Source: a virus
IMG/VR virus record: IMGVR_UViG_3300010885_050164
Span: 1-39,188 of that record
Length of the DNA: 39,188 nt
Direction: 5' to 3' (one strand)
Shown one piece after another: positions 9,611 to 32,922 of the stretch. Each line of letters starts with the position of its first letter. Position 1 is the first letter of the stretch. A model generated the notes under the pieces. The model searched no databases. It was given only the letters and a program-made list of their open reading frames with translations, and was not told the DNA's origin. A program made the position numbers and the translations under genes.

Positions 9611-11674
9611 ATGGCACGCAAGAATCCTGAAATGGCTCAAGAGATACAAGAGTACATTGCTACATTTGACAATTATTGGAAAGATAACAAAAACACTTAT
9701 AATGAGTTTGTTCAGTTTGTCTTTGGCAATCAATGGCTAGACGAAGAAGCTCGAGTATTTGAAACTTATAAAAAAATACCGCTTACTTTTAACAAGCTAG
9801 CTCCTATGGCAAATCACCTACTGGGTGAGCAACGTCAAAATACACCCACACTAAACTGTGAGCCAGATGAATCAGTCCCCGAACAAACAGCAGAGGTTCG
9901 TACTGCTTTGGTCAAAGACATCACGCTAAATTCGGACACCAATGTCGTATTTCAAACTGCGTTTCAATCCTCCATTGTTGGTGGCTTCGGTGCATTCTAT
10001 GTTGACATAGATTATGAAAATGATTCAAGCTTCAATAAGGTTATCCGTATCAAAAAGATGGAAATCCCTACGCGTTGTTATTGGGATGTGAGCTCTATAT
10101 CTCCGTGCAAGACTGATGGTATGTATTGTGGGTTTCGCACGCGCATGTCGCGCAAGAAGTTCCGAGCCTTATATGGAAAAAAAGTAGAACAAGATATTCC
10201 TCCTAGTAACATTGAAGAAGGTAGTGTGTTCAATGATGACGAATCAGTAACGATTACGACGCATTGGAAGCGTATTTATGAGCGCGATAAACTTTACAAG
10301 CTTAGCAATGGTCGCGTGGTAAATAGGCAAGAGTTTAAGTTGTTGGAGCGCATCAATGTTGACGATCACGATATGTTATTGGATGGTGGTCAGCTCGTTA
10401 CGGTGGAAGATGAGAGAGATGCGCCAAAATATAAAGTTAAGAAAATGATGTATGCGGGGGACTATGAGTTGGAGTCTGAGGACTTTCCTAGTGAACAATT
10501 GCCGCTGGTGTTTGTTGATCAAAACTCATTTTTCAACAAAGAGGGCACACAAGTTTGTCGACCATTCTTTAAAGACACGAAAGACGCTCAAAGATATATC
10601 AATTATCTCGGTACTCAGTCTGCCTATTTGGTTAAAATTGGTCGGTACGACCAGTTTCTTATTGCCGCCGGGAATGCGCGCTCGAATGATACAGCACAAA
10701 TATGGCGTGACCCTTCCAACATTCAGGGTGGATTGAAGTTTGATGAAGTGCCATCAGGATTTATACCTCAGCAGTTGAAGCCACCAGAGCTATCTGTGTC
10801 ACTAACGCAGCAATACGAGCGCGCCGAGCGTGACATTCAAACATGTACCGGTATGTACAACACAATGATGGGCGACCAAGGTGCGGAAACGTCTAAAATT
10901 GCTATTGATGCACGCACTAAACGCGGTAATTATAACACTCATCTTCCTTTTGATAGCCTTAATCGCGCCATTGCTGTTTGCGGTCAGATTGTTAATGAAA
11001 TGATACCTAAAGTTTATGATACTGAACGGACATTGATGCTGAATATGAAAGAAAAAGGCATGACTGCTGTTCCAATAAACAAGCCTATGGATGAATACGG
11101 TTCGCAAATACAAAATGACATGACTGAGGGTCGATATACTATCCGATTGCAGCCTGGACCAAGCTGGGAAGGGCAGAAACAAGAGGCGCTCGACTCTATG
11201 CAGCTTATTTTGCAGGCTAATCCACAATTATTTAACCTTATGGCTGATTTGTATGTTGAAAATCTACCTCTTAGCAATAATTTAGAGCTAAGGAATCGAT
11301 TGAAGACGATTGTTCCGCCTGAAATCATTGAAGCCGGCAAGACTGGTGAGCCTGTTCCTCCGAAACCGCAGCCGCCAGACCCTATGATTATGATAAAGAT
11401 GCAAGAAGTTAAGATTAAACAGCAGGCATTAGAGCTCGAACAAGAAAAGTTGCAGATGGAAGCTCATGAGAAAGGGCAGGATATACAGATGAAGTGGGGC
11501 GAGATTGAGGCCAAGAAGCAGGCTGCCGCTGCTGAATTGCAGGAAATGGAGCTTAAATATCTGGCTGAAATGCATCGTACGGTATCGGACGAGCAAATAG
11601 CGCATGCAAATAATTTAGTTAAACTGTTAACGCACAAGCAAAAGGAAAAGACACATGAGTCTAAAGAACATTGA
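9611..11674 (+). CDS. P22-type portal protein
   Basis: A 687-residue protein of P22 gp1 length. Residues 1-500 show the P22-type portal pattern (FGNQWLDEEARVFETYKKIPLTFNKLAPMANHLLGEQRQNTP at about 38-80; NIEGGL-like segments later; IAIDARTKRGNYNTHLPFDSL). The last 120 residues form a long charged coiled coil (KIKQQALELEQEKLQMEAHE), like the P22 portal barrel that runs into the capsid. It is the dodecameric DNA channel. The C terminus overlaps the scaffold gene by 20 bases. Confidence 0.92.
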   Translation: MARKNPEMAQEIQEYIATFDNYWKDNKNTYNEFVQFVFGNQWLDEEARVFETYKKIPLTFNKLAPMANHLLGEQRQNTPTLNCEPDESVPEQTAEVRTALVKDITLNSDTNVVFQTAFQSSIVGGFGAFYVDIDYENDSSFNKVIRIKKMEIPTRCYWDVSSISPCKTDGMYCGFRTRMSRKKFRALYGKKVEQDIPPSNIEEGSVFNDDESVTITTHWKRIYERDKLYKLSNGRVVNRQEFKLLERINVDDHDMLLDGGQLVTVEDERDAPKYKVKKMMYAGDYELESEDFPSEQLPLVFVDQNSFFNKEGTQVCRPFFKDTKDAQRYINYLGTQSAYLVKIGRYDQFLIAAGNARSNDTAQIWRDPSNIQGGLKFDEVPSGFIPQQLKPPELSVSLTQQYERAERDIQTCTGMYNTMMGDQGAETSKIAIDARTKRGNYNTHLPFDSLNRAIAVCGQIVNEMIPKVYDTERTLMLNMKEKGMTAVPINKPMDEYGSQIQNDMTEGRYTIRLQPGPSWEGQKQEALDSMQLILQANPQLFNLMADLYVENLPLSNNLELRNRLKTIVPPEIIEAGKTGEPVPPKPQPPDPMIMIKMQEVKIKQQALELEQEKLQMEAHEKGQDIQMKWGEIEAKKQAAAAELQEMELKYLAEMHRTVSDEQIAHANNLVKLLTHKQKEKTHESKEH

Positions 11675-12476
11675 TGATATGTTGGTGGCTGATATGACCG
11701 GCTTGGTTCCAGAGCCTGTTCCATTGGTAAATGACGAGCCAGTGGATGTGCTTGATACCCCTGTGTATTTGGCGCCCAACTTAGAGGAATCAGAGCCAGA
11801 GGTAGTCAAGGAGGAGGCTGTCGTCGATGACTACGGCACAGAGGTAATCAAGCAAGAAAGAGTTTATACGGAATCTGAAGTGCAGGCAATGATTCGTGAG
11901 CGTGTAAGTCGCATGAAGCAGCCTTCATCAGAACCACAGCATCAGGCAGTGGCGCCACAAAATTTTGAATATGATGCTAATAATTCTGATTCATGGGAAG
12001 CGCAATTAGAAGCATTTAATGAATCTTGGTTTAATAAACGTCAGCAACGTGAAATGCAAGTTGAACAGCAAAGACGTGAAGAAGAAGCTAATGCTAATTT
12101 TGAGATGAAGTTTAATCAAGGCGCTGCTAAATATGCTGACTTCGAGCAAGTAGTATTAGGGAAGCCATTGACACCGCAAATGGTGACGGCAACTCGTGGG
12201 ATGGATAATCCGGCGGCTTTTATTTACGCGGCTGCTAAAACACAATCTGCGGAATTGGAAAGGATTTCTAAAATATACGATCCATTTGCGCAAGCCATTG
12301 AGTTAGGACGATTAGAAGAGCGTATGCGCAAAGCAAGACCATCAACAACACAAGCTCCTAGGCCTATTGACACGCCCAAAGGTGATGTGTCGGAGAAAGT
12401 TGAGCGCACTTGGTCAATTGATGATAAGTTGCGGCAGATTGAGAAACAGCAGCGGCAAGATAGATTGCGTAGATAA
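11655..12476 (+). CDS. scaffolding protein
   Basis: A 273-residue acidic-then-helical protein between portal and coat, the P22 scaffold (gp8) position. The N-terminal 75 residues are acidic and disordered (LVPEPVPLVNDEPVDVLD...), the middle is a long coiled coil (QQREMQVEQQRREEEANANF), and the C terminus is a short basic helix pair (WSIDDKLRQIEKQQRQDRLRR), matching the coat-binding end of P22 scaffold. It directs procapsid assembly. The assignment rests on position and architecture. Confidence 0.85.
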   Translation: MSLKNIDDMLVADMTGLVPEPVPLVNDEPVDVLDTPVYLAPNLEESEPEVVKEEAVVDDYGTEVIKQERVYTESEVQAMIRERVSRMKQPSSEPQHQAVAPQNFEYDANNSDSWEAQLEAFNESWFNKRQQREMQVEQQRREEEANANFEMKFNQGAAKYADFEQVVLGKPLTPQMVTATRGMDNPAAFIYAAAKTQSAELERISKIYDPFAQAIELGRLEERMRKARPSTTQAPRPIDTPKGDVSEKVERTWSIDDKLRQIEKQQRQDRLRR

Positions 12477-12482
12477 TTAATT

Positions 12483-12511
12483 CGAGCCCTTAGGTGGGCT
12501 CGTGTTCTTTT
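12483..12511 (+). terminator. terminator after scaffold gene, overlapping HNH stop codon
   Basis: CGAGCCC (12483-12489), loop TTAGGT, GGGCTCG (12496-12502), then TGTTCTTTT: a Rho-independent terminator for rightward transcription. The loop bases 12490-12492 are also the stop codon of the leftward HNH gene, so the two features are interleaved. Confidence 0.75.
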
Positions 12512-13044
12512 AGGTAATTAGTAGCTTTAATTAGTAGGGCCGATGAGTCTTTAAAGAAACCAAGCCCCGAATTACAATCTTGACAAAGAAGTTCACGAGC
12601 CCTCCCAGTAATATGGCAGTGATCAACAGCCAAAGACTTAACATCTTTTCCATTATTTGATTTCCTAATACTTTTTTCTCCACAAATAGCGCATAGACCT
12701 TTTTGTTTGTCCCACATGGCTTGATAATCTTCCATGCCGTTCATCCCTTTGAAGTTCACTCTAATATTTCTATCTCGCGCGCAAAGTTTGCAATTTATTT
12801 GCAAATACCTATCAACTTGACGCTGATAAGTCTCTTCCTCTCTTAGATACCCGTGAACTTTGCAAAACTTCACTATTCCTTCCGGAAAAGGGACGTCAGG
12901 AACATAATTGGGAGGACCTTCGTGATTTGATAAATCATAAGACTTTCTCATATTCCATCTATATCGATGCATGGTACAAATGACGCCATTAGCATGGTTT
13001 TTACAATTAGAAACTTGACAATATTTAAATCGATTAACAGGCAT
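12490..13044 (-). CDS. HNH homing-type endonuclease (endonuclease VII fold)
   Basis: A 184-residue protein. The N-terminal part has a zinc-finger-like CQVSNC..HANGVICTMHRYR segment. The C-terminal part is an endonuclease VII-type HNH domain: CAICGEKS, then VDHCHITGRARELLCQDCNSGLGFF. The frame is open to 13110, but GAGAGG six bases before the ATG at 13044 decides the start. It is on the strand opposite to the head genes and separates scaffold from coat. Such free-standing phage HNH enzymes spread by cutting relatives that lack them. Here it lies about 250 bp upstream of a group I intron in the coat gene, whose invasion it may drive. Confidence 0.88.
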   Translation of the reverse strand: MPVNRFKYCQVSNCKNHANGVICTMHRYRWNMRKSYDLSNHEGPPNYVPDVPFPEGIVKFCKVHGYLREEETYQRQVDRYLQINCKLCARDRNIRVNFKGMNGMEDYQAMWDKQKGLCAICGEKSIRKSNNGKDVKSLAVDHCHITGRARELLCQDCNSGLGFFKDSSALLIKATNYLKEHEPT

Positions 13045-13075
13045 AATACACCTCTCTAGTGTTCTCATTGAAAGG

Positions 13076-13131
13076 TCTTTAGCCAAACTGGTGAGATTCC
13101 AGTAATTCACGCTGCAGGCGCTAGGCTAAGA
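13076..13131. other. three-way-junction-like inverted repeats upstream of coat gene
   Basis: TCTTTAGCC (13076-13084) and GGCTAAGA (13124-13131) close a junction that holds ACTGG-TGAGATT-CCAGT (13087-13103) and CGC-TGCAG-GCG (13110-13120). It covers the promoter-proximal side of the HNH gene. The 5-bp stem and 7-base loop recall an anticodon arm, but the loop lacks T33, and no other tRNA arm fits. Role unknown. Confidence 0.35.
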
Positions 13132-13168: not shown

Positions 13169-13290
13169 AAAAATGACGTGTAATCCCCGTGCTTCCCGTC
13201 AGGCACAAAAAGGCGTGTACTTTATCTTCCGCCGGATAACAAAAACGGTCCCTTTGGGGAAATTATTTTTTATCTAATCGGAGAAATAAA

Positions 13291-13345
13291 GTGGCCAACG
13301 CATTCCAGACCACGCAGTATATACTCGATGAAGTGTTTGTTAGGT
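13291..13345 (+). CDS. major coat protein, exon 1
   Basis: GTG start with GGAGA six bases upstream. It encodes MANAFQTTQYILDEVFVR plus the first base of codon 19. The reading frame then stops within three codons inside the intron (TTA ATT TGA). Joining 13345 to 13605 restores a continuous frame ...EVFVR-Y-INYLNFAKVANR..., which fits the conserved N terminus of P22-type coat proteins (helix, then 'N.L.F.K.VNR'). Total spliced protein is 420 residues, near the 430 of P22 gp5. The P1 pairing of AGGT with GCCT puts the splice after T13345. Confidence 0.85.
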
Positions 13346-13604
13346 TAATTTGAGGCCTCTTTGCAAAGTAATTTGCAATCGATACCGGGTGAACTCAGGG
13401 AACATCTCAAGCAGACAATCCTGAGCCAAGCTACAGAAATGTAGAAGGTGCAACGACTATCCAGCAATGGAGTACACTCAAGTGAGTGGAAGCGCCCGGC
13501 CCCTAACCAGCGATGGAAGGGTGAAGATATAGTCTGTTCTCTTAAGCGATTAAGAGCTGCTGAAAGGCGGGCTTGGCAGTAACGAAGCCGGGTTGAACAA
13601 AAAG
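13346..13604 (+). ncRNA. group I self-splicing intron in coat gene
   Basis: A 259-nt intron. Exon end AGGT pairs with GCCT of the guide sequence, with the expected T-G wobble at the 5' splice site (P1). P2 is TTGCAAA-GTAA-TTTGCAA (13361-13378). AATCCTGAGCC is the conserved Q element and CTACA-GAAA-TGTAG is a P6-type hairpin. GCAACGACTATCC and GAAGATATAGTC are the R and S elements that form the guanosine-binding P7. CACTC-AAGT-GAGTG is an extra P7-region hairpin. CTCTTAA-GCGA-TTAAGAG is P9 with a GNRA loop. The intron ends in G (13604). It has no internal reading frame of its own. Confidence 0.92.
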
Positions 13605-14812
13605 ACATCAATTATCTTAATTTCGCAAAAGTGGCGAACAGAAATTTAGAAGCGGACTTCAAGACTCTAAAATACGCAACAGGTCAAACCATTAACTATC
13701 GTTTGGAAGAACGATTTTTGGGTGGTTATGGCGCTACTGCTGTTGACGAATCCGTGGTTCAAGTTGTTCGTCCTTTAACAATTGATACTCAGTTCCACTC
13801 AATGGTATCTTTTAATGGCATGGAATTAACATTCGATCGCGCTCGTGACCAGCCCTATTTAGACATGATGTTGTTGCCACGTGCTAAGAAACTGGCGAAC
13901 AACGTTGAATCGTTTATTTGCGCTCAGAACTTCCAGCCTGCTGTGTATCAAACTTATGGTACACCTGGTGTCCCGATTGATCAAAACACTGTATTCCAAA
14001 CAGATGCTTACATGACTGAGCTTGGTATTCCAGAAGATGGCAATCGTTACTTTGCTAATAGTCCTGCTATTTCCGCTACCTTGTCGAATGCGTTGTACAA
14101 CGTATTTAACATGACTGTTAACCGTGGCGCTTTGATGGATGGATTTATTGGTCACTTAGCTGGCTTTGATTTCTTTAAGACTAACTTCTTGAAGCGTCAG
14201 ATTGCTGGTGTCGGGCAAACGGGTTCTTCTGGTGTTACTGGTTTCAAGCTTGGCGGAACTGTAAAGGTTGGTCCTGTTAGTAGCGGAAACACTATTCAGT
14301 TGGAAAATCTTGTTGCCAGTTCTTTGGTATTTAAAGCTGGCGATAAAATTCAATTGGCGCAATCTGCTGGTGTGTTTATGGTTAATCCATTGGCTACATT
14401 GAGTCAGTCTGCTGGCTACGCCCCGCTATCTCAAACTGCGCAATTTGTAGTGTTAGAAGATACTGTTTCTAATAGCTCGGGTGAGGCAACCATTACAGTT
14501 AGCCCTAGCATTGTTGTTAGTGGTGCTCGGCAAAACATAAGTGGCGCTATTCCTCAAGGCGCGCAATTCTTGTTAGCTAACGATCATAATGAGTCTATTG
14601 CTTTCCACAATCAGTCATTAGTTTTTGCAGCTCCTCCAATCACTGAATTGAAAGGTGGTGTTGAGGCTGTTACCACTTATTCTGACTTGTACAAGATGGC
14701 TATGACTTATACTTTAGGTGCTGACATCCGTAACTACGTCCAGTTAGATCGATTGGATATTATTGCGGGCGTTGCAATTAACCCTGAGTTTGCGGTTATC
14801 GTAATGAGTTAA
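13605..14812 (+). CDS. major coat protein, exon 2 (P22 gp5-like)
   Basis: The bulk of the coat protein, about 400 residues. It contains the P22-type coat pattern: DESVVQVVRPLTIDTQFHS, LPRAKKLANNVESFICAQNF, the ANSPAISATLSNALYNVFN helix region, and FLKRQIAGVGQTGS. A beta-rich insertion (about residues 215-310 of the whole) corresponds to the I-domain of P22 coat. An in-frame GTG at 13631 could be misread as the start, but it has no ribosome binding site and would lose the conserved N-terminal helix. It forms the T=7 shell with the scaffold. Followed by a hairpin terminator at 14818. Confidence 0.92.
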
Positions 14813-23236: not shown

Positions 23237-26200
23237 ATGAGCATAACTAATTTAGTACGAGATTATGGCGTTGAACCGTGTATCGTTAGAATGATTACTA
23301 CGGACAACTATGCAACTATTTCAGCCGAGGGGTATCTTCTTACCCAAATGCCAGCATTTGAACGAATTAATGGTGGGGCATTCCAATGGACTGATTCGGA
23401 CGTTATATTAGCAGATTACGATGGTGGCTGGGCTTTTTTTACTATTTCTCACGATTTTGATTCTTTGATTCCATTTAGTGGAATAGCTCCTACTCCTCAA
23501 CCAAGTTCTGTTTTAGTTACAGATGTTAATTCAAATGAATTATGGCAGGGGCCATTAACCGATGGTCAATTAATTGTTGGCGTTACCGGAGGAACCCCCG
23601 TAGCCAATGAATTAATAGCGGGCGATAACGTTACTATTGATATTGCGCCGGGGACTATTACTATTAATGCTACTGGTGGCGGTGGCAGCGGGGTTACATC
23701 CACTCAAGTGCAACGCAATTCGTTTAATTATGCTGCCGGTACCTATAGCGCTGGAAATTATACCGTCACATTGAGTCCTGCTGTTACTGTGTTAACAGAT
23801 GGGCTATTAGTAACAATGATTGCTGGCAGTACAAACGCTACAACCACTCCAACATTGCAATTAAATGCATTATCACCAAAACCTATAGTATCTTTTGGTG
23901 GTAGCCCGGCTATAGGGGATATTTTAGCTGATAGCGCTTATTTGCTGGTTTATAATGGAGACAATGATAATTTCCAATTATTAAATCCATCTTTAACGGC
24001 TGCGCAATCTTATTTAGTTCAAAAACAATATTATAATTTTGCGCCAGATATTGGTGTTGCTAATGCTTATGTAGCCAATCTTGTTTTGCCTCCTCTTGTG
24101 TCATTATCTGATGGTATTACGGTTTATTTGCAAATTGCTAACACGAATACAGGCGCATCTACTTTAGCCGTTAACGGTTCTAGTGCGGCACCAATTGTTT
24201 CATTAAATGGATCGGCATTAACCGGTGGAGAAATAGTTGCAGACAGCTTGCAAATGTTTATGTATTCATCGGCAGAGAACGCTTTTGTATTGATGACGCC
24301 TTATGTGGCGCCTTCTGTTGCGGGTGTGACTTCTATTACCGGTACGGCAAATCAAGTTATTGCATCATCATCGACTGGAAATGTAACATTATCATTGCCT
24401 CAAAACATTGCGACTACCAGTTCTCCAACATTTGATGCGCCTATTTTTACCGCTCCTGTTTTAGGTATTCCCACTAGCGGGAATTTGGTTAATTGCACAA
24501 ATTTATCAGTCCCAGATGGATTAAACGCCTCTGGAACTCCGGGTGCTACCACATTTTTACGGGGCGATGGAGTTTGGTCTATTCCCGCGGGGACGGGCGT
24601 AGCAAGCGTATCAGGTACTACAGATAGAATTACTTCTACGGGCGGCATTAATCCAGTTATAGATATTTCGTCATCTTATGTGGGGCAATCGTCAATAACA
24701 ACATTGGGTACCGTAACAGTAGGCACATGGAACGGCACAACGATAGATGTGAGTCATGGCGGCACGGGAGTAACATCGGTAACCACCAATCCCACAGCCA
24801 CGTCATGGGCAGGTTGGGATTCCAACGAAAATTTATTGGCTAATAATTTTCTTTACAATACTCAAACTTACAATACTGCTATAGGTAATTTATCTATATT
24901 AGTTTCGTCACCTTATTATACTATTTTGACAGGAAATACATCGCGTTATTTACTTTTTCCTGATAACACAACAATTCCTTTAGGTTTTAGTGTACGTATT
25001 TTTAACAATGGACTTGGCACGCACACATTATTTGCTAGCGATGATTCTATTATTTACAATTTATTGCCGGCTACTACTGTTGTTGTTACTAACATAAACA
25101 CATCTGTTTCTGCGGCCACATCATGGAGCGTAGTTGTAGAATCAGGACAAACCATTAATCTTGGTTTGCAAAACCAACTGGCTTATTATGCTAGCAATGG
25201 ACAAATACTTAGCGGTCTATCTACAGCGGCCAATAGTCTTCTTGTCACGGATTCTTCTGGAGCTCCTAGTTTAGGTACGGACATTCTTTCAGACATTACA
25301 ATCAATCAAGTTATTGCCGGCAAGGGTAATGGTGATGGTGTAACTAACACCGTTTTTGGGGCTGCTGCTGGCCCTGGTGTTAATTATACGATGGGGGGTT
25401 CTGTTTCATTAGGATTTACAGCGGGCGCTAATGCTACGTCATCCAATAATATAGGCGGTTTTGTAGCAATAGGGTTATACGCGGGTCTCCATGCTAATGA
25501 CTATGATGTTTTTATTGGCTCAGAAACCGCGCAAGAAGGTAGCGGTGGTTCAAACGTTGGCGTAGGCGCTCAGGCTTTGTATCGTGGCGGTAGTTCAGTT
25601 AGTGCTTGTACGGCTATTGGTACTTCATGTTTGCCAGAATTAATTACTGGTCAAGGCATTACGGCGCTTGGATCTCAATGCGCCCAAAGTGTCACATCAG
25701 GCAGTTATGGCATATTTATTGGGGCTCAATGCGCACAAAGTATTACATCAAGTAATTACGGCATATTTATTGGAGCTTTTACTGGAGCCACCAACCCATC
25801 TAATTGTGATAATGTTATTGCCATTGGAGCGGGAGCAATAGCCAACTCAGCATCTGGACCAAACGGGCCCGGAATTTCTTTTGGCGCAAGTGGTATTCCA
25901 GTTGGTTTTAATTCTGAAGGTTTGCCGTACGCTAATAATATTGATAATACCGCCGGTTATTGGCGGGTAACTGTGAATGGCACTAACTTTTTAATGCCTT
26001 TGATGCATGATGGTGTTTCTACAACTTCATCATGTTTTTTAACCGATTCAAATGGTACACCTTTTTTGTCCAACTCTATGCAGGATGGCCAACTTATAAT
26101 AGGTGCTACCGGAGCTAATCCCGCTCCAGGAAATATCGTTGGTGGTACCGGCATTAGTGTTACCAACACTGCCAATCAAATAACAATATCATCTACAAGT

Positions 26201-26530
26201 TCTGGTTTCCCGTATGTAACAATTTCTGGAACAATTCAGAATGCGGACGTTAATCATGGTTACATTCCAACCAATTCGGCACTGACCACTATTAATTTGC
26301 CTGCTGTTTGTGTTGCTGGCGACAAAATATCAATACGTGGTTATGGAACCGGCGGATGGGTGTTGCAAGCAAATACAGGACAAATCATAGCTTTTAATCA
26401 ATTATCATCGACTATTGGTGGCAGTTTTGCTAGCGCATACGAGCTTGATACGATTGATGTTGTTTGTTTGATTGACAATACATTTTGGACTGTTGAAGGT
26501 GCTGTATCCGCTGGTTTAATTGCAGCTTAA
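23237..26530 (+). CDS. large modular tail fibre protein (fibre array member 1)
   Basis: A 1097-residue protein. Residues 1-90 are an anchor module (MSITNLVRDYGVEPCIVRM...AFFTISHDFDSLIPFSG), related to the separate 162-residue protein at 33404. The middle has repeated beta modules (DGLLVTMIAGSTNATTTPTL; DGITVYLQIANTNTGASTL). From about residue 505 it shares a set of modules with the next four genes: GGTGV-AGWDSNENL leader, triple-strand stalk, LAYYASNG-LVTD, YadA-head-like G-A-IG repeats, YWRVTVNGTNFLMPL, and a C-terminal knob (NHGYIPTNSALTTINLP...GTGGWVLQANTGQ). It probably anchors the fibre set. Confidence 0.8.
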   Translation: MSITNLVRDYGVEPCIVRMITTDNYATISAEGYLLTQMPAFERINGGAFQWTDSDVILADYDGGWAFFTISHDFDSLIPFSGIAPTPQPSSVLVTDVNSNELWQGPLTDGQLIVGVTGGTPVANELIAGDNVTIDIAPGTITINATGGGGSGVTSTQVQRNSFNYAAGTYSAGNYTVTLSPAVTVLTDGLLVTMIAGSTNATTTPTLQLNALSPKPIVSFGGSPAIGDILADSAYLLVYNGDNDNFQLLNPSLTAAQSYLVQKQYYNFAPDIGVANAYVANLVLPPLVSLSDGITVYLQIANTNTGASTLAVNGSSAAPIVSLNGSALTGGEIVADSLQMFMYSSAENAFVLMTPYVAPSVAGVTSITGTANQVIASSSTGNVTLSLPQNIATTSSPTFDAPIFTAPVLGIPTSGNLVNCTNLSVPDGLNASGTPGATTFLRGDGVWSIPAGTGVASVSGTTDRITSTGGINPVIDISSSYVGQSSITTLGTVTVGTWNGTTIDVSHGGTGVTSVTTNPTATSWAGWDSNENLLANNFLYNTQTYNTAIGNLSILVSSPYYTILTGNTSRYLLFPDNTTIPLGFSVRIFNNGLGTHTLFASDDSIIYNLLPATTVVVTNINTSVSAATSWSVVVESGQTINLGLQNQLAYYASNGQILSGLSTAANSLLVTDSSGAPSLGTDILSDITINQVIAGKGNGDGVTNTVFGAAAGPGVNYTMGGSVSLGFTAGANATSSNNIGGFVAIGLYAGLHANDYDVFIGSETAQEGSGGSNVGVGAQALYRGGSSVSACTAIGTSCLPELITGQGITALGSQCAQSVTSGSYGIFIGAQCAQSITSSNYGIFIGAFTGATNPSNCDNVIAIGAGAIANSASGPNGPGISFGASGIPVGFNSEGLPYANNIDNTAGYWRVTVNGTNFLMPLMHDGVSTTSSCFLTDSNGTPFLSNSMQDGQLIIGATGANPAPGNIVGGTGISVTNTANQITISSTSSGFPYVTISGTIQNADVNHGYIPTNSALTTINLPAVCVAGDKISIRGYGTGGWVLQANTGQIIAFNQLSSTIGGSFASAYELDTIDVVCLIDNTFWTVEGAVSAGLIAA
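25676..25777 (+). repeat. 51-bp tandem duplication inside fibre gene
   Basis: Two adjacent 51-bp units (starting 25676 and 25727) encode QCAQSVTSGSYGIFIGA and QCAQSITSSNYGIFIGA. The paralogous gene at 26540 has only one copy of the unit, so this is a lineage-specific gain of one 17-residue beta-helix-like coil. Confidence 0.85.
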
Positions 26531-26539
26531 GGACTATTA

Positions 26540-28315
26540 ATGAGTACTAATAATTTATTAAATACAGGCGTAGTCCCTTTATATGTTAGCCAAGGGGGTA
26601 CGGGTCATAATGCCGTAGTAACATCACCTACAGCCACGTCATGGGCGGGCTGGGATGCTAATGAAAATTTATCAGCAAATAATTTTCTTTATAATTCTCA
26701 GACTCATAATACCGATACAGGCACTTTAGTTATAACGGTGAGCTCGCCTTATTATACTATTTTGACCGGAAATACATCTCGTTATTTGTTTTTACCGGAC
26801 AATACAACAATCCCTTTGGGATATAGTGTAAGAATTTTTAACGATAGCTCGGTTTATCATATTTTAGCTGCCAGTAACAATTCTGATGTATATACTTTAT
26901 TGCCCGGATTTACTGTTATTGCTACTAGTATTAATACGTCTGTTTCCACGGCTTCTTCATGGAATGTTGTTGTAGAGTCGGAACAAAATACTGTTCCAGG
27001 ATTGCAAAATCAATTAGCTTATTATGCTAGCAATGGTATAGAAATTAGTGGCCTTGTTACTGCAGCTAATAGTCTTTTGGTTACTGACTCGGCTGGAGCC
27101 CCTCGTTTAGGTACGGCAATTCTTTCAGATATCACTATTAATGGCATTACCGCGGGAAAAGGTAATGGTGATGGTGTAAGTACAACCGTTTTTGGCGCTT
27201 CCGCTGGCCCTGGTGTTGGTTATACGGCAACAGGTTATGTGTCCATAGGATTCCAATCCGCTGCTTTAGCAACATCAAATAACGGCGCTGGTAGTTTTAT
27301 AGCAATAGGAGCTTATGCAGGCCTCCATGCCAACGATTATGATATTTTTATTGGGTCACAAACGGCCCAAGAAAGTAGTGGTGGCTCAAATATTGGAATA
27401 GGGTATCAAGCTTTGTATCGTGGCGGAAGCTCCCTTAATGCTTGTCTTGCTTTTGGTAGTGCGACCTTATCAAGCTTAACGTCCGGCCAAAACGTTACTG
27501 CTGTTGGCCCTCAATGCGCACAAGACATTACAGCATGCAGCTATGGCATATTTATTGGATCATATGCTAGCGCCACCGACCCATCTAATTGTAATAATGT
27601 CATTGCCATCGGTTCAGGAGCAATAGCCAATTCACCAACAGGAACAAACGGAGCTGGTATTGCTTTTGGCGGTGTTAATTACCGCGTGGGATACAATTCT
27701 AACGGCTTGCCCTACGCAAACAACTCTGGAAATACCGCTGGTTATTGGCGAGTAACCGTTAACGGAACAAACTTTTTAATGCCCCTCATGCAAGATGGCG
27801 TCTTAACCCCTTCATCATGTTTTTTAACCGACGGAAACGGAACGCCAACACTAAGTAGTTCTTTAACTGATGGACAAATAATAATAGGCTCAACCGGCAA
27901 TGCCCCTGTCCCCGCAAATTTAACCGCGGGAGATAACATTACAATTACCAACACCAGCGGAAACGTCACCATATCGGGCACAACAGCAGGCATACAATGG
28001 ATAGGGGTATCATCAACGCTGCAAGCCGCGTTGCCCAACCATGGATACATCATCCAAAACTCATCAGCAACAACTATTGCGCTACCCGCTACAGCCGATT
28101 TAGGCAGCACCGTCAATGTTCAAGGATTAGGGGCTGGCGGGTGGTCTTTAGCCGCCAATACTGGACAGACAATACAGTTCGGAACATCAAGAACAACCAC
28201 AGCCGGTGCTTTAACCAGCACCAATCAATGGGATGCTTGCCAGGTCGTATGTGTTGTTGCCGACACAACATGGTCAATAAGCTATTCAACAACTAACGCT
28301 TTAAACGTAACTTAA
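26540..28315 (+). CDS. modular tail fibre protein (fibre array member 2)
   Basis: A 591-residue protein that parallels the C-terminal 590 residues of the preceding 1097-residue fibre almost module for module (TATSWAGWDANENL, SSPYYTILTGNTSRYL, NQLAYYASNG, GYWRVTVNGTNFLMPLM). It lacks the anchor domain and opens instead with a short leader, MSTNNLLNTGVVPLYVSQGG, shared with the next three genes. The C terminus is a knob-like domain (GAGGWSLAANTGQTIQFG). It ends nine bases after gene 1. Likely an alternative or additional receptor-binding fibre. Confidence 0.8.
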   Translation: MSTNNLLNTGVVPLYVSQGGTGHNAVVTSPTATSWAGWDANENLSANNFLYNSQTHNTDTGTLVITVSSPYYTILTGNTSRYLFLPDNTTIPLGYSVRIFNDSSVYHILAASNNSDVYTLLPGFTVIATSINTSVSTASSWNVVVESEQNTVPGLQNQLAYYASNGIEISGLVTAANSLLVTDSAGAPRLGTAILSDITINGITAGKGNGDGVSTTVFGASAGPGVGYTATGYVSIGFQSAALATSNNGAGSFIAIGAYAGLHANDYDIFIGSQTAQESSGGSNIGIGYQALYRGGSSLNACLAFGSATLSSLTSGQNVTAVGPQCAQDITACSYGIFIGSYASATDPSNCNNVIAIGSGAIANSPTGTNGAGIAFGGVNYRVGYNSNGLPYANNSGNTAGYWRVTVNGTNFLMPLMQDGVLTPSSCFLTDGNGTPTLSSSLTDGQIIIGSTGNAPVPANLTAGDNITITNTSGNVTISGTTAGIQWIGVSSTLQAALPNHGYIIQNSSATTIALPATADLGSTVNVQGLGAGGWSLAANTGQTIQFGTSRTTTAGALTSTNQWDACQVVCVVADTTWSISYSTTNALNVT

Positions 28316-28334
28316 CAACAAAAGAGGTGGTCTA

Positions 28335-30143
28335 ATGGCTACAAATAACGTTTTAAACACAGGCGTCACCCCCTTAGCTAAAACTCAAGGCGGTACGGGC
28401 GTAAACGCAGCCCCTACAACGGCAACAGCATCTAGTTTCGCCGCTTGGGATGCAAATATCAATTTGCCAGCAAACAGTTTTATTGCGGGATTTGCAACAA
28501 CTGTAACATCAGCAGGAACAACTACATTAACGGTTGCCGATGCCGAACAACAACATTTTACAGGCACATTAACTCAAACTGTAGTGTTGCCCGTTGTATC
28601 AACATTGACGCTTGGTCAATCATTTACAATCTACAATGCTTCCTCAGGCAGTGTAACTGTCCAATCATCCGGTGGAAATACAATTCAAATAATGACCGCT
28701 GGAACACAATTAATTGTTACTTGTGTCCTGACAACAGGAACGGACGCTTCCTCGTGGTCTCTTGTTTACAGTAACAATGCTGGTTCGACAGGAACTGTAA
28801 ATTCAAGTACAGCCAACAATTTAGCTTATTACGCAACGTCAGGAACAGCAGTATCAGGGCTAACCACTGCTAATAACGGTATATTAGTAACCGACGGCTC
28901 GGGGGTTCCAAGCATCGGAAACACTGTCGGTGCTGATTTGATAATCAATACTGTTACCGTGGGGGTGGGAGCTGGAGGCGGCATCGGAAACACCGTTGTT
29001 GGTGCTGACGCATTGTCAATTGGCACAGCAGCCGTATTAGGCGGTACTTTCGTCGGACAAAATGCCGGTAATTTAGTAACCACGGGCCAAAGCATGACCA
29101 TTATTGGTAACTATGCTTATGCTTCTGGCGCCGGAGCTAATTTTGAAACGGTTGTTGGTACAGGCGCTTTACCTTCTGGCGGTGGCGATAACACTGCTAT
29201 TGGTTTTTCAGCCTTAAATGCTTCGGTTGATGGCACTTTGATAGAAACAACTGCCGTAGGTTCTAGCGCTGGTCTTTATTTGGAAACAGGGGCGGACAAC
29301 GTCTTAGTAGGTTTCGGGACTGGAACGGGCGGACCTGGTTTTGCCAATCTAACAGATGGTACCGCAGTCGTTTTAATCGGTGTTAATGCTGGGGTTAATG
29401 CTTCAACTGCTACCGGTGTCATCGCAATTGGCGCGGGCGCACTTGGTTTGGTTGGCACGGGAAACACCTCCGGCGATGATAGCCCTGGTTTCTCCATTGG
29501 CTCTACTTCCCATCCTGTCGGCGTACGAGGCGACGGCTCGCTATATACCGGTGGCTCAGGAAAAGGCTTTTGGCGACCAAGCATTAACGGCGCTCAATAT
29601 TTTGTGCCTTTGTTTACGGATGCAACAATAGTTCCCTCCGCTAGCATGGTGACGGATTCTAACGGCTCCCCCGTTTTATCATCATCAATGACCGACGGTC
29701 AGGTTATGATTGGTCAAACCGGCGGAACGCCAGTGGCAGCAAACCTAACGCAAGGCGCAGGTATATCCATTACGAATGCCGCTGGCGGAGTAACCATAGC
29801 TGCTACAGGCGCGGTGGGAATGCCGTTTAATGCAATCAGCGGAACCACTCAAGCAGCAGCAGTTTTTAACGGCTACATCCCCACCAATGCCTCTCTAACA
29901 ACAATTGATTTGCCAGCTACAGCAGCAATAGGGAGCATCATAGCGGTTCAAGGTTTGGGGACAGGTGGGTGGACATTGGTCGCCAATAGTGGACAAACCA
30001 TAATGCTAGGTGAGGCAACAACATCAGCAGCTGGTAGCTTATCAAGCGTTGCTGCATCAGATTCTGTGTGGATTGTGTGCGTACAAGCAGATACGGTATG
30101 GAGCGTTTACGCTTCTGTTTCAACTGGGCTAACTGTGGCTTAA
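28335..30143 (+). CDS. modular tail fibre protein (fibre array member 3)
   Basis: A 602-residue protein with the same plan as its neighbours: MATNNVLNTGVTPLAKTQGG leader, AAWDANINLPANSF, a TTLTV-HFTGTLTQTVVLP-SGGNTIQ stalk, NLAYYATSGTAVSGLTT, YadA-head-like GNTVVGADALSIG repeats, GKGFWRPSINGAQYFVPL, and a C-terminal knob (GTGGWTLVANSGQTIMLG). Alanine/glycine-rich and higher in GC than early genes. AGAGGTGG is the ribosome binding site. More diverged from members 1 and 2 than those are from each other. Confidence 0.8.
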   Translation: MATNNVLNTGVTPLAKTQGGTGVNAAPTTATASSFAAWDANINLPANSFIAGFATTVTSAGTTTLTVADAEQQHFTGTLTQTVVLPVVSTLTLGQSFTIYNASSGSVTVQSSGGNTIQIMTAGTQLIVTCVLTTGTDASSWSLVYSNNAGSTGTVNSSTANNLAYYATSGTAVSGLTTANNGILVTDGSGVPSIGNTVGADLIINTVTVGVGAGGGIGNTVVGADALSIGTAAVLGGTFVGQNAGNLVTTGQSMTIIGNYAYASGAGANFETVVGTGALPSGGGDNTAIGFSALNASVDGTLIETTAVGSSAGLYLETGADNVLVGFGTGTGGPGFANLTDGTAVVLIGVNAGVNASTATGVIAIGAGALGLVGTGNTSGDDSPGFSIGSTSHPVGVRGDGSLYTGGSGKGFWRPSINGAQYFVPLFTDATIVPSASMVTDSNGSPVLSSSMTDGQVMIGQTGGTPVAANLTQGAGISITNAAGGVTIAATGAVGMPFNAISGTTQAAAVFNGYIPTNASLTTIDLPATAAIGSIIAVQGLGTGGWTLVANSGQTIMLGEATTSAAGSLSSVAASDSVWIVCVQADTVWSVYASVSTGLTVA

Positions 30144-30163
30144 TTAATTAACGAGGTGTTCAA

Positions 30164-30937
30164 GTGGCGACTAATAATAGTTTAAACATTAACTCAACAA
30201 CCCCCCTTATTTTAGGTTGGGGTGGTACTAACAACAGTTTAACCGCATCAAACGGAGGTATTGTTTATTCCGATGCTTCTAAAATGCAAATTCTGTCGGG
30301 AACAGCAACAGCCAATCAGATTTTATTGTCTGGTTCAAGTGCTGCACCGTCGTTTTCTACCGCAACTTATTTGTCTACATTAACAGCAAATGAGTTGGTT
30401 TATGCGTCATCGGCCAATACAATGGCGCAATTGGCTACTGCTAATAGCGCAACGTTGATTACTAGTGCGGCAGGCGTACCATCATTTACATCAAGTTTTA
30501 CTGATGGTCAGATTTTGATTGGTAGCACTGGCGCCTCTCCTGCTCCTGGCACAATTACTGCTGGCATCGGTATATCTGTTACAAATGGTGCTGGAAGCAT
30601 TACTATTGCTTCGGTTACGGGTGTTACATGGTCGTCTATTGCTGGGACCAGTCAAGCAGCAGTTGTAAACCATGGTTACTACGTATCCAATGCTAGTTTA
30701 ACGACAATTACGCTACCGGATACGGCTCCCGCTGGTTCTGTGATTCGTGTTGCAGGAACTGGTGTAGGCGGATGGGATATTGTTCCTGGCGTTGGGCAAA
30801 CAATACACGTTGGCTCCGTTCCTGGAACAGCCAGTGTTGCCTCTAGCAATCAATATGATTCTATTGAATTGCTTTGTACCGTTACGGATACAACTTGGGT
30901 AACATTGAGCTCACAAGGTAACTTTAATATTACCTAG
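30164..30937 (+). CDS. short modular tail fibre protein (fibre array member 4)
   Basis: A 257-residue protein starting GTG with GAGGTG ten bases upstream. It keeps the leader (MATNNSLNINSTTPLILGWG), the SSFTDGQILIGSTGASPAPG module and the C-terminal knob (GVGGWDIVPGVGQTIHVG), but lacks the YadA-head-like middle. It is either a short fibre or a deletion product that retained both functional ends. Followed by a strong terminator. Confidence 0.75.
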   Translation: MATNNSLNINSTTPLILGWGGTNNSLTASNGGIVYSDASKMQILSGTATANQILLSGSSAAPSFSTATYLSTLTANELVYASSANTMAQLATANSATLITSAAGVPSFTSSFTDGQILIGSTGASPAPGTITAGIGISVTNGAGSITIASVTGVTWSSIAGTSQAAVVNHGYYVSNASLTTITLPDTAPAGSVIRVAGTGVGGWDIVPGVGQTIHVGSVPGTASVASSNQYDSIELLCTVTDTTWVTLSSQGNFNIT

Positions 30938-30946
30938 TTTTAACCC

Positions 30947-30973
30947 CCCCCTCTACGGAGGGGGCCGAATTTT
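30947..30973 (+). terminator. Rho-independent terminator between fibre genes
   Basis: CCCCCTC-TACG-GAGGGGG (30947-30964) is a 7-bp G/C stem with a stable TACG tetraloop, followed after four bases by ATTTT. It splits the fibre array, so member 5 may be made at a lower level. Confidence 0.75.
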
Positions 30974-30984
30974 AAGGGGATATT

Positions 30985-32922
30985 GTGACTGTTAATAATG
31001 CCATTAATGCAAATAGTGTGACGCCTTTGCCTGCAACCAGTGGCGGGACGGGCGTTAATACACCAACCACAAGCCCCACATCTGGCGCGTACGTGGCGTG
31101 GGATGCTAACTCTAATTTATCAGCGAATAGTGTTGTCAATGGATACACATCCATAACCAGTGCAGCAGGTACTACGACATTAACAGTATCTAGTACTTAT
31201 CAGCAGGTGGTTACAGGCTCTACAACACAAACAATTGTAATGCCGGATGTTACTACGCTAATACAAGGTCAGTCTTGGAAAATAACCAACAATAGCACTG
31301 GATTGGTTACGGTTAATTCTTCTGGCGGGAATGCAATTATAACGTTAGCCACAGGTAATTCTGCTACTATAGTTTGTAGTTCTACTTCTGGTGCGACTGC
31401 TGCGTCGTGGACTTATAATTTAATTGCTCGAACGTTTTATGCTCAAAATCCTGGGATTACTATTACGGGGTATAATGTTAATGGTGTTATTGCATCATTG
31501 GATTCCGGAACCTTTATGATAAACAATGTTTATTATACTAATGTTTCATCGTTAACTGTTCTGTCTTCTGTTGCGCAAACCACTGTCACATCCGTAACAT
31601 TAGGTACATTGCAAGTTCTTGTTGACAATACAGGTACTTTTTTATCCGACATGATAGATAATTCATGTACATCATTTATTGCTTCTAGTTTAATTTTATA
31701 TTCTAACTCTTTAGGGGCATCAATCTCATCGACAGGGTTAACTACTTTTCAAATACCATTAGTTACGTCATTGTCATTTTTTTCTTTAACAGCAAACTCA
31801 TTAACCAGTGTTGACTTTAGCTCTTTATCTTCGACTTCTGGACAATTTGCCCTGTCATCTAGTGGATTAACATCTCTATCTCTATCAAATTTAGTAACCG
31901 TTTCGATCGGATTGCAATTAACATTATCGGGATTAACATCATTAAACCTATCTTCGTTGGTCAATGCTGGCGCTAACTTCAATATGGCATGCGCCTCATT
32001 AACTTCTTTATCATTGCCGAGTTTAACTACCGTTACATCAACAATAAATTTGAATTGTGCAAATGCAACATCAGTTAGTATTCCTTCTTTTACTGGAGGA
32101 AGCGGGGTTGGGATTTCCTTTAATTTTACAGCATTAACATCTTGGTCTTTTGATTCAATCACAGCAGCATCTTCATTAACATTAAATGGTGCCGCCGCAA
32201 CAAGTCTTAGCTTTTCATCATTAACTTCGGTGGCAAGTCTTGCGGGAACACTAACCGTTCTTTCTTCATTAAGCATTAATAGCCTACTTACTACTTCAGG
32301 AAATTTTTCTTTAATAGCTCCAGCAGCAACCAGTGTTAGTTTTTCTGGGTTGACCACTGTTAATGGATTTAATCCTTCATTTGCATCGGCGACATCTATA
32401 AATTTTTCATCATTAGCAACGTGCGGTACTGCGTTTACTCCAATCTTAACAGCCGTTACTGCTTATAGTTTTCCAGCATTGGCCACTGTGGGGAACGCCT
32501 TTGCTGTCCTTGGTCCTGCTGCAACTTCAGCAGATTTTTCATCATTAGCTACACTATCTAATAGTGCATCCACGCACAGTGTAAATTTTGCTTTACTAAC
32601 AAGTCTATCATTCCCTGCATTAATCACCGTTGTTTCTAGTGCGGCTTTTGTTATTACCGCACCAAATCTTGTAACATTTTCTTTCGGGTCTACTTTAAAA
32701 AGATTTGGAGGCAATTTAACAATGACCGGCATGAAACTAAACCAAACCTCCGTAGACGGAATACTAGTATCTCTAGCAGCATTAAACGGTACAGGAGGCA
32801 CAACAGCATATAGCAGTAAGACAATTAACTTAAGTGGCGGCACATCATCAGCACCAAGTGCTACTGGTTTGGCTGCTAAAACTACGCTACAAGCCCGAGG
32901 ATGTACGGTTACAACGAACTAA
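30985..32922 (+). CDS. tail fibre protein with leucine-rich-repeat-like domain (fibre array member 5)
   Basis: A 645-residue protein starting GTG after AAGGGGA. Residues 1-160 match the other array members (MTVNNAINANSVTPLPATSG leader; AYVAWDANSNLSANS; TTLTV-YQQVVTGSTTQTIVMP; SSGGNAI). From about residue 230 it changes to roughly 22-residue repeats of the type LTSLSLSSLTTV..., with regularly spaced L/F and S/T (about 15 repeats), like BspA-type leucine-rich repeats. The end (TGLAAKTTLQARGCTVTTN) recurs in LRR-type phage and bacterial surface proteins as far as I recall. A receptor-binding tip built from an LRR solenoid is inferred. Confidence 0.75.
   Translation: MTVNNAINANSVTPLPATSGGTGVNTPTTSPTSGAYVAWDANSNLSANSVVNGYTSITSAAGTTTLTVSSTYQQVVTGSTTQTIVMPDVTTLIQGQSWKITNNSTGLVTVNSSGGNAIITLATGNSATIVCSSTSGATAASWTYNLIARTFYAQNPGITITGYNVNGVIASLDSGTFMINNVYYTNVSSLTVLSSVAQTTVTSVTLGTLQVLVDNTGTFLSDMIDNSCTSFIASSLILYSNSLGASISSTGLTTFQIPLVTSLSFFSLTANSLTSVDFSSLSSTSGQFALSSSGLTSLSLSNLVTVSIGLQLTLSGLTSLNLSSLVNAGANFNMACASLTSLSLPSLTTVTSTINLNCANATSVSIPSFTGGSGVGISFNFTALTSWSFDSITAASSLTLNGAAATSLSFSSLTSVASLAGTLTVLSSLSINSLLTTSGNFSLIAPAATSVSFSGLTTVNGFNPSFASATSINFSSLATCGTAFTPILTAVTAYSFPALATVGNAFAVLGPAATSADFSSLATLSNSASTHSVNFALLTSLSFPALITVVSSAAFVITAPNLVTFSFGSTLKRFGGNLTMTGMKLNQTSVDGILVSLAALNGTGGTTAYSSKTINLSGGTSSAPSATGLAAKTTLQARGCTVTTN

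Follow-up and report, generated by a model that had tools for sequence, protein, structure and literature searches.

In the viral DNA analysed here (the window, 39,188 nt), a group I intron interrupts codon 19 of the P22-type coat protein gene, and its sequence and fold leave us nearly certain that it splices. This confidence covers the intron and its splicing; the route by which the intron lineage moves is judged separately below.

Results

Joining two exons yields a complete P22-type coat protein

The coat gene and its surroundings in the window are organized as follows.

11655-12476, + strand: scaffolding protein gene (phrog_8865, E 1e-14; genomic context)
12490-13110, - strand: Endonuclease VII-family gene (PF02945, E 1e-18) in the gap between scaffold and coat genes, antisense to the coat gene and directly upstream of it
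13280-13283, + strand: ribosome-binding site GGAG, read from the sequence, 7 nt 5' of the GTG start
13291-13345, + strand: coat exon 1, 18 codons plus the first base of codon 19, ending in AGGU; colinear with 69 intronless relatives, with signs of purifying selection
13346-13604, + strand: group I intron without an open reading frame, td-like, subgroup IA2, 259 nt, with a terminal G; placed by RF00028, the restored frame and ten aligned introns
13605-14812, + strand: coat exon 2, from the second base of codon 19 to the stop; profile matches lie on its 13631-14812 part

The sequence-only reading of this DNA had claimed that a GTG with a good ribosome-binding site opens a frame that dies in the intron, and that removal of 13346-13604 restores a P22-type coat protein. 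Both claims agree with our results. Unspliced, the frame from GTG 13291 reads VANAFQTTQYILDEVFVRLI and reaches a stop 8 nt into the intron. When 13345 is joined to 13605, the frame stays open for 420 codons, and the resulting 420-residue protein aligns end to end with its intronless relatives. The junction then reads ...EVFVR-Y-INYLNFAKVANR and is colinear with relatives such as that of locus L002. The proposed borders were right almost to the base, fixed as they are by the restored frame and the ten aligned introns. The 13631-14812 part matches PF11651 P22_CoatProtein (E 3e-16) and phrog_283 (E 4e-36); these matches, with scaffold, portal and terminase genes upstream, place the protein among the P22-type coats.

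To obtain relatives, IMG/VR was scanned with the spliced coat protein as query, giving 80 loci. An uninterrupted coat is present in 69 of them, running from residue 1-3 to at least residue 415 with 61-85% identity to the spliced coat. These proteins open like MANxFQTTQYILDEVFIR[YF]INYLNF, at the equivalent of 13291. The earlier reading had predicted that gene callers would open the coat at GTG 13631, which becomes codon 28 after splicing, and so lose the N terminus. The residues encoded before 13631 are indeed present in the intronless relatives. A start at the equivalent of 13631, the outcome that reading had named as speaking against it, was found in none of these IMG/VR loci by alignment.

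The nearest intronless relative, L002, begins MANAFQTTQYILDEVFIRYINYLNF and is 85% identical over residues 1-420. Over the 18 codons of exon 1, 11 codons differ from L002 synonymously and one nonsynonymously; this excess shows that exon 1 is under purifying selection and is still maintained as protein. No other line of evidence available to us speaks as strongly for removal of the intron in nature. Among annotated phage isolates, only coats with less than 28% identity to that of the window were found. Assignment of a host from genome collections was abandoned: the sole match, a short contig in an alphaproteobacterial MAG, is too weak. Elsewhere in the window, the late region at 23237-32922 holds four large open reading frames (1097, 591, 602 and 645 aa) that have no PHROG match at E 0.001.

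The intron has a td-like fold

A covariance-model search, proposed earlier as a check on the group I claim, matched Rfam RF00028 on the + strand at 13337-13556, scoring 78.1 bits against a gathering score of 50 (E 2.4e-18), and no other Rfam family exceeded its threshold in the window. The subgroup IA2 structure was then drawn by hand on ten aligned coat introns, giving 62 pairs in 13 helices. Its main elements in the window, all on the + strand, are these.

13342-13358: P1, exon AGGU (13342-13345) with the internal guide GCCU (13355-13358) and a U.G pair at the 5' splice site
13361-13378: P2, 13361-13367 with 13372-13378; compensatory change in six of seven pairs
13385-13499: P3, 13385-13391 with 13493-13499; 100% paired in the ten introns, three compensated pairs
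13394-13425: P4/P5, with P4 formed by 13394-13399 and 13420-13425; 100% paired and present in the minimum free energy (MFE) fold
13455-13534: P7, the guanosine site, GACTAT (13455-13460) with ATAGTC (13529-13534), pseudoknotted with P3
13539-13556: P9 hairpin with a GCGA (GNRA) loop; compensatory change in five of seven pairs
13557-13595: P9.1 and P9.2 hairpins; P9.2 covaries across the introns

Across the ten introns, 98.4% of the 615 pair cells are formed, a share that is favoured by the structure having been drawn on one of these sequences. Changes on both sides, which are not favoured in this way, occur in 32 of the 62 pairs. None of 500 shuffles reached these values, and sliding the helix partners destroys the signal. 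P3, P4, P6 and P7, the pseudoknotted core, are 97-100% paired and P8 is 95.7% paired; P7 has only one varying cell. The P7.1 and P7.2 hairpins, which follow the 5' strand of P7 and precede the 3' strand of P3, both covary and are 100% paired. The MFE fold of the window's intron recovers P1 to P9.2 minus the P7 pseudoknot (z -2.3). The exon-end U, in its U.G pair with the guide, and the intron-end G are found in 10 of 10 coat introns. Every element listed in the sequence-only reading was found: the T-G wobble in P1, P2, P6, P7 (GACTAT/ATAGTC), the GNRA-capped P9 and the terminal G. P1 of the window's intron has just four contiguous pairs, and a search for P10 in this intron found no such pairing.

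With 259 nt and nine in-frame stops, the intron contains no reading frame and so encodes no homing endonuclease. For the nine introns of established phase, translation of exon 1 always meets a stop ahead of the core, 3-35 nt past the 5' splice site. A profile HMM of the coat introns (nhmmer) matched all three introns of T4, which from their map positions we take to be td (E 4e-15), nrdB (9e-10) and nrdD (8e-19). By these matches and the P7.1 and P7.2 hairpins, the window's intron is a td-like subgroup IA2 intron homologous to those of T4.

Related introns occupy other sites of the coat gene

When the 80 records were searched with RF00028, five further ones proved to carry an intron, always at or near the start of the coat gene. 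A scan for the intron lineage itself added sites E, F and G, and a broader scan added site H. The sites are listed with their exon end and guide.

Site A: codon 19, phase 1 (window, L064), AGGU/GCCU
Site B: after codon 24 (L059), GAAU/GUUC
Site C: codon 28, phase 2 (L054/L055), AGGU/GCCU
Site D: after MSFSG, just 5' of the equivalent of codon 3 (L039), AGGU/GCCU
Site E: codon 7, phase 2 (L131), AGGU/GCCU
Site F: after about codon 44 (L123), AGGU/GCCU
Site G: in more distant P22-type coats (L105/L149, L120), AGCU/GGCU
Site H: in a more distant P22-type coat (L247), AGGU/GCCU

Removal of the intron restores the conserved coat protein at sites A-G. Within the window's own coat clade, related introns thus occupy six positions (A-F), all in the first ~45 codons. 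AGGU with a GCCU guide is the only target shared by six of the eight sites in P22-type coats (A, C, D, E, F and H), and the guide changes along with the exon, as the pairs AGGU/GCCU, GAAU/GUUC and AGCU/GGCU show. If sites were placed uniformly along the gene, six sites of one clade would fall within about the first 135 nt with p ~2e-6. AGGT itself is spread over the coat gene, with 16% of its occurrences in the first 135 nt (69 intronless coats); given this spread, the clustering of the clade's five AGGU sites has p ~1e-4. The coat introns are 69-84% identical to one another and therefore are not recent copies. In the literature searched, which covered few subscription journals, we found no report of introns at multiple sites of one coat gene. 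At L059, an int-alpA RNA (RF02996, 51.7 bits) lies at 865-932 on the - strand, just upstream of the intron-bearing coat gene.

A tree was built from 86 td-like introns. Eight coat introns from seven sites form one clade (support 99/90), which also contains a T7-like capsid intron; branching inside the clade is not resolved. On this tree the ten P22-coat introns require two label changes compared with 9.6 in shuffled labels, and 0 of 500 shuffles was as low. The clade and the label changes indicate that the introns follow the gene, not the site. Together with the five further sites in sister phages, this suggests that the lineage has changed position inside the coat gene. The T7-like intron (L153/L143) lies near the C-terminal end of its capsid gene, and its position inside the P22-coat clade may reflect a jump between capsid families.

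An Endonuclease VII-family gene lies next to some coat genes

As in the window, an Endonuclease VII-family gene is found directly upstream of the coat gene in L064 and L131. About 13 of 70 relatives, some with an intron and some without, have such a gene in the slot between scaffold and coat genes. Among coat loci, 3 of 7 with an intron and 10 of 63 without one have it (Fisher p 0.11), and since this association is not significant, we rejected the idea that the gene is an obligate partner of the intron. Its product is a candidate homing endonuclease that might serve the intron in trans.

Capsid genes often carry introns of two lineages

The earlier reading had regarded a group I intron as unusual in such a highly expressed virion gene, on the supposition that splicing would then limit capsid yield. 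That capsid introns are unusual is not supported: published cases exist, in LittleE and in crAss-like phages, and capsid genes are common hosts in our tallies. Of the 86 td-like introns, 53 are in major capsid genes, which belong to seven PHROG families (283, 1328, 371, 267, 1357, 334 and 544), genes being labelled by cluster representative; the remainder lie in polymerase, tail sheath, terminase and other or unassigned genes. These tallies comprise contigs recognised as viral, a set that may be enriched in capsid genes and whose related members do not count as independent cases. Phage contigs also contain another group I lineage, distinct from the first (pattern AAGGTTCAGAGACTA; L263-L382), with many capsid matches and 14 in psbA. 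Endonuclease VII-type proteins lie in or next to its introns in about a quarter of loci. As this lineage is often found in capsid families too, we discarded the idea that a preference for capsid genes is peculiar to td-like introns. In L087, L090, L126 and L144, a single SU10-type major capsid gene carries several td-like introns, some a few hundred nt apart. By these tallies of two lineages, and contrary to the earlier expectation, introns are common in the major capsid genes of uncultivated phages.

Discussion

We propose a model for how the intron is removed. The ribozyme would fold within the late coat mRNA, where its guide GCCU would pair with AGGU at the end of exon 1. P7 would bind an external guanosine with which the ribozyme makes the cut, and the exons would be joined at U13345/A13605 to encode the 420-residue coat protein. 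From the conserved structure we infer that splicing takes place in the cell as guanosine-initiated self-splicing. Ribosomes that start before splicing would halt at the stop 8 nt into the intron, before P3, and this early halt may leave the ribozyme core free to fold. Stops early in an intron have been discussed as aiding ribozyme folding (review, PMC3984707).

It could be argued that the element is degenerate and does not splice, that the coat starts at GTG 13631, where gene callers would begin the frame, and that exon 1 is a relic. We think there is hardly any chance of this, as the N-terminal residues occur in all 69 intronless full-length relatives, changes in exon 1 are 11 synonymous to 1 nonsynonymous, every helix is intact, and copies at other sites retain the same structure.

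How the lineage reached its several sites is less certain. We considered reverse splicing into coat mRNA followed by recombination, recombination initiated by an outside endonuclease, and ordinary recombination between phages. The likeliest route would be ectopic insertion at short guide-complementary sites, either by reverse splicing and recombination or by endonuclease-initiated recombination, after which the intron could spread from phage to phage by ordinary recombination. In its specific form, that an ORF-less td-like lineage repeatedly transposes within the 5' end of one gene family by RNA reverse splicing at AGGU and then genome recombination, we hold this idea only tentatively. Insertions with an unfitting P1 would be lost, so the common AGGU reflects in part such filtering and does not prove reverse splicing. 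Collaborative homing, in which the Endonuclease VII-family protein cuts intronless coat genes and the intron is carried along, seems to us about equally tentative. It draws on the gene directly upstream in the window, L064 and L131, and on relatives of this gene that are located inside or beside group I introns elsewhere in phages. However, the gene's distribution (3 of 7 against 10 of 63 loci, p 0.11) does not favour it, and a sequence-specific nuclease alone does not explain six different sites. It is also conceivable that related introns came to each coat site separately, out of other phage genes and without ever moving inside the coat gene, since td-like introns are widespread across many phage genes. 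We find this rather improbable, given that the ten P22-coat introns need two label changes on the tree where shuffled labels need 9.6 (none of 500 shuffles as low) and that eight of them fall in the 99/90 clade with one T7-like capsid intron.

Taken alone, the window's intron adds a further example to a familiar class, and it matters mostly for annotation, where gene callers will truncate such coat proteins. The six positions, each with a guide fitting its own site, offer a compact system of small related introns, and the multi-site pattern allows tests of a long-standing question, namely how group I introns arrive at new sites. If repeated transposition is true, a phage protein gene would provide evidence from nature that group I introns transpose by reverse splicing.

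Several known systems invite comparison. The td, nrdB and nrdD (sunY) introns of T4, group I IA2, share with the window's intron a homologous core, P7.1/P7.2 and P9.1/P9.2, whereas the window's intron has no reading frame and lies in a coat gene rather than in a gene of nucleotide metabolism. In mycobacteriophage LittleE, the major capsid gene carries a group I intron that is spliced, as demonstrated by RT-PCR and N-terminal sequencing, and the authors presume that splicing is very efficient (PMC3706429). LittleE and the window both have major capsid genes split by a group I intron, with splicing in the window deduced from sequence; however, the LittleE intron is 820 bp long, has an endonuclease frame and lies at one site in another capsid family (PMC3706429). 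A zeta-group crAss-like phage has several group I introns, recognised by their endonuclease domains, in a single major capsid gene, whereas the coat introns described here are ORF-less and lie at different sites in different phages (PMC7886860). Last, spread by reverse splicing has been proposed for rDNA group I introns (PMC1299323; reviewed in PMC3984707). Like the coat introns, these are related introns at different sites of one gene with short guide complementarity, but here the gene is a protein-coding gene of a phage.
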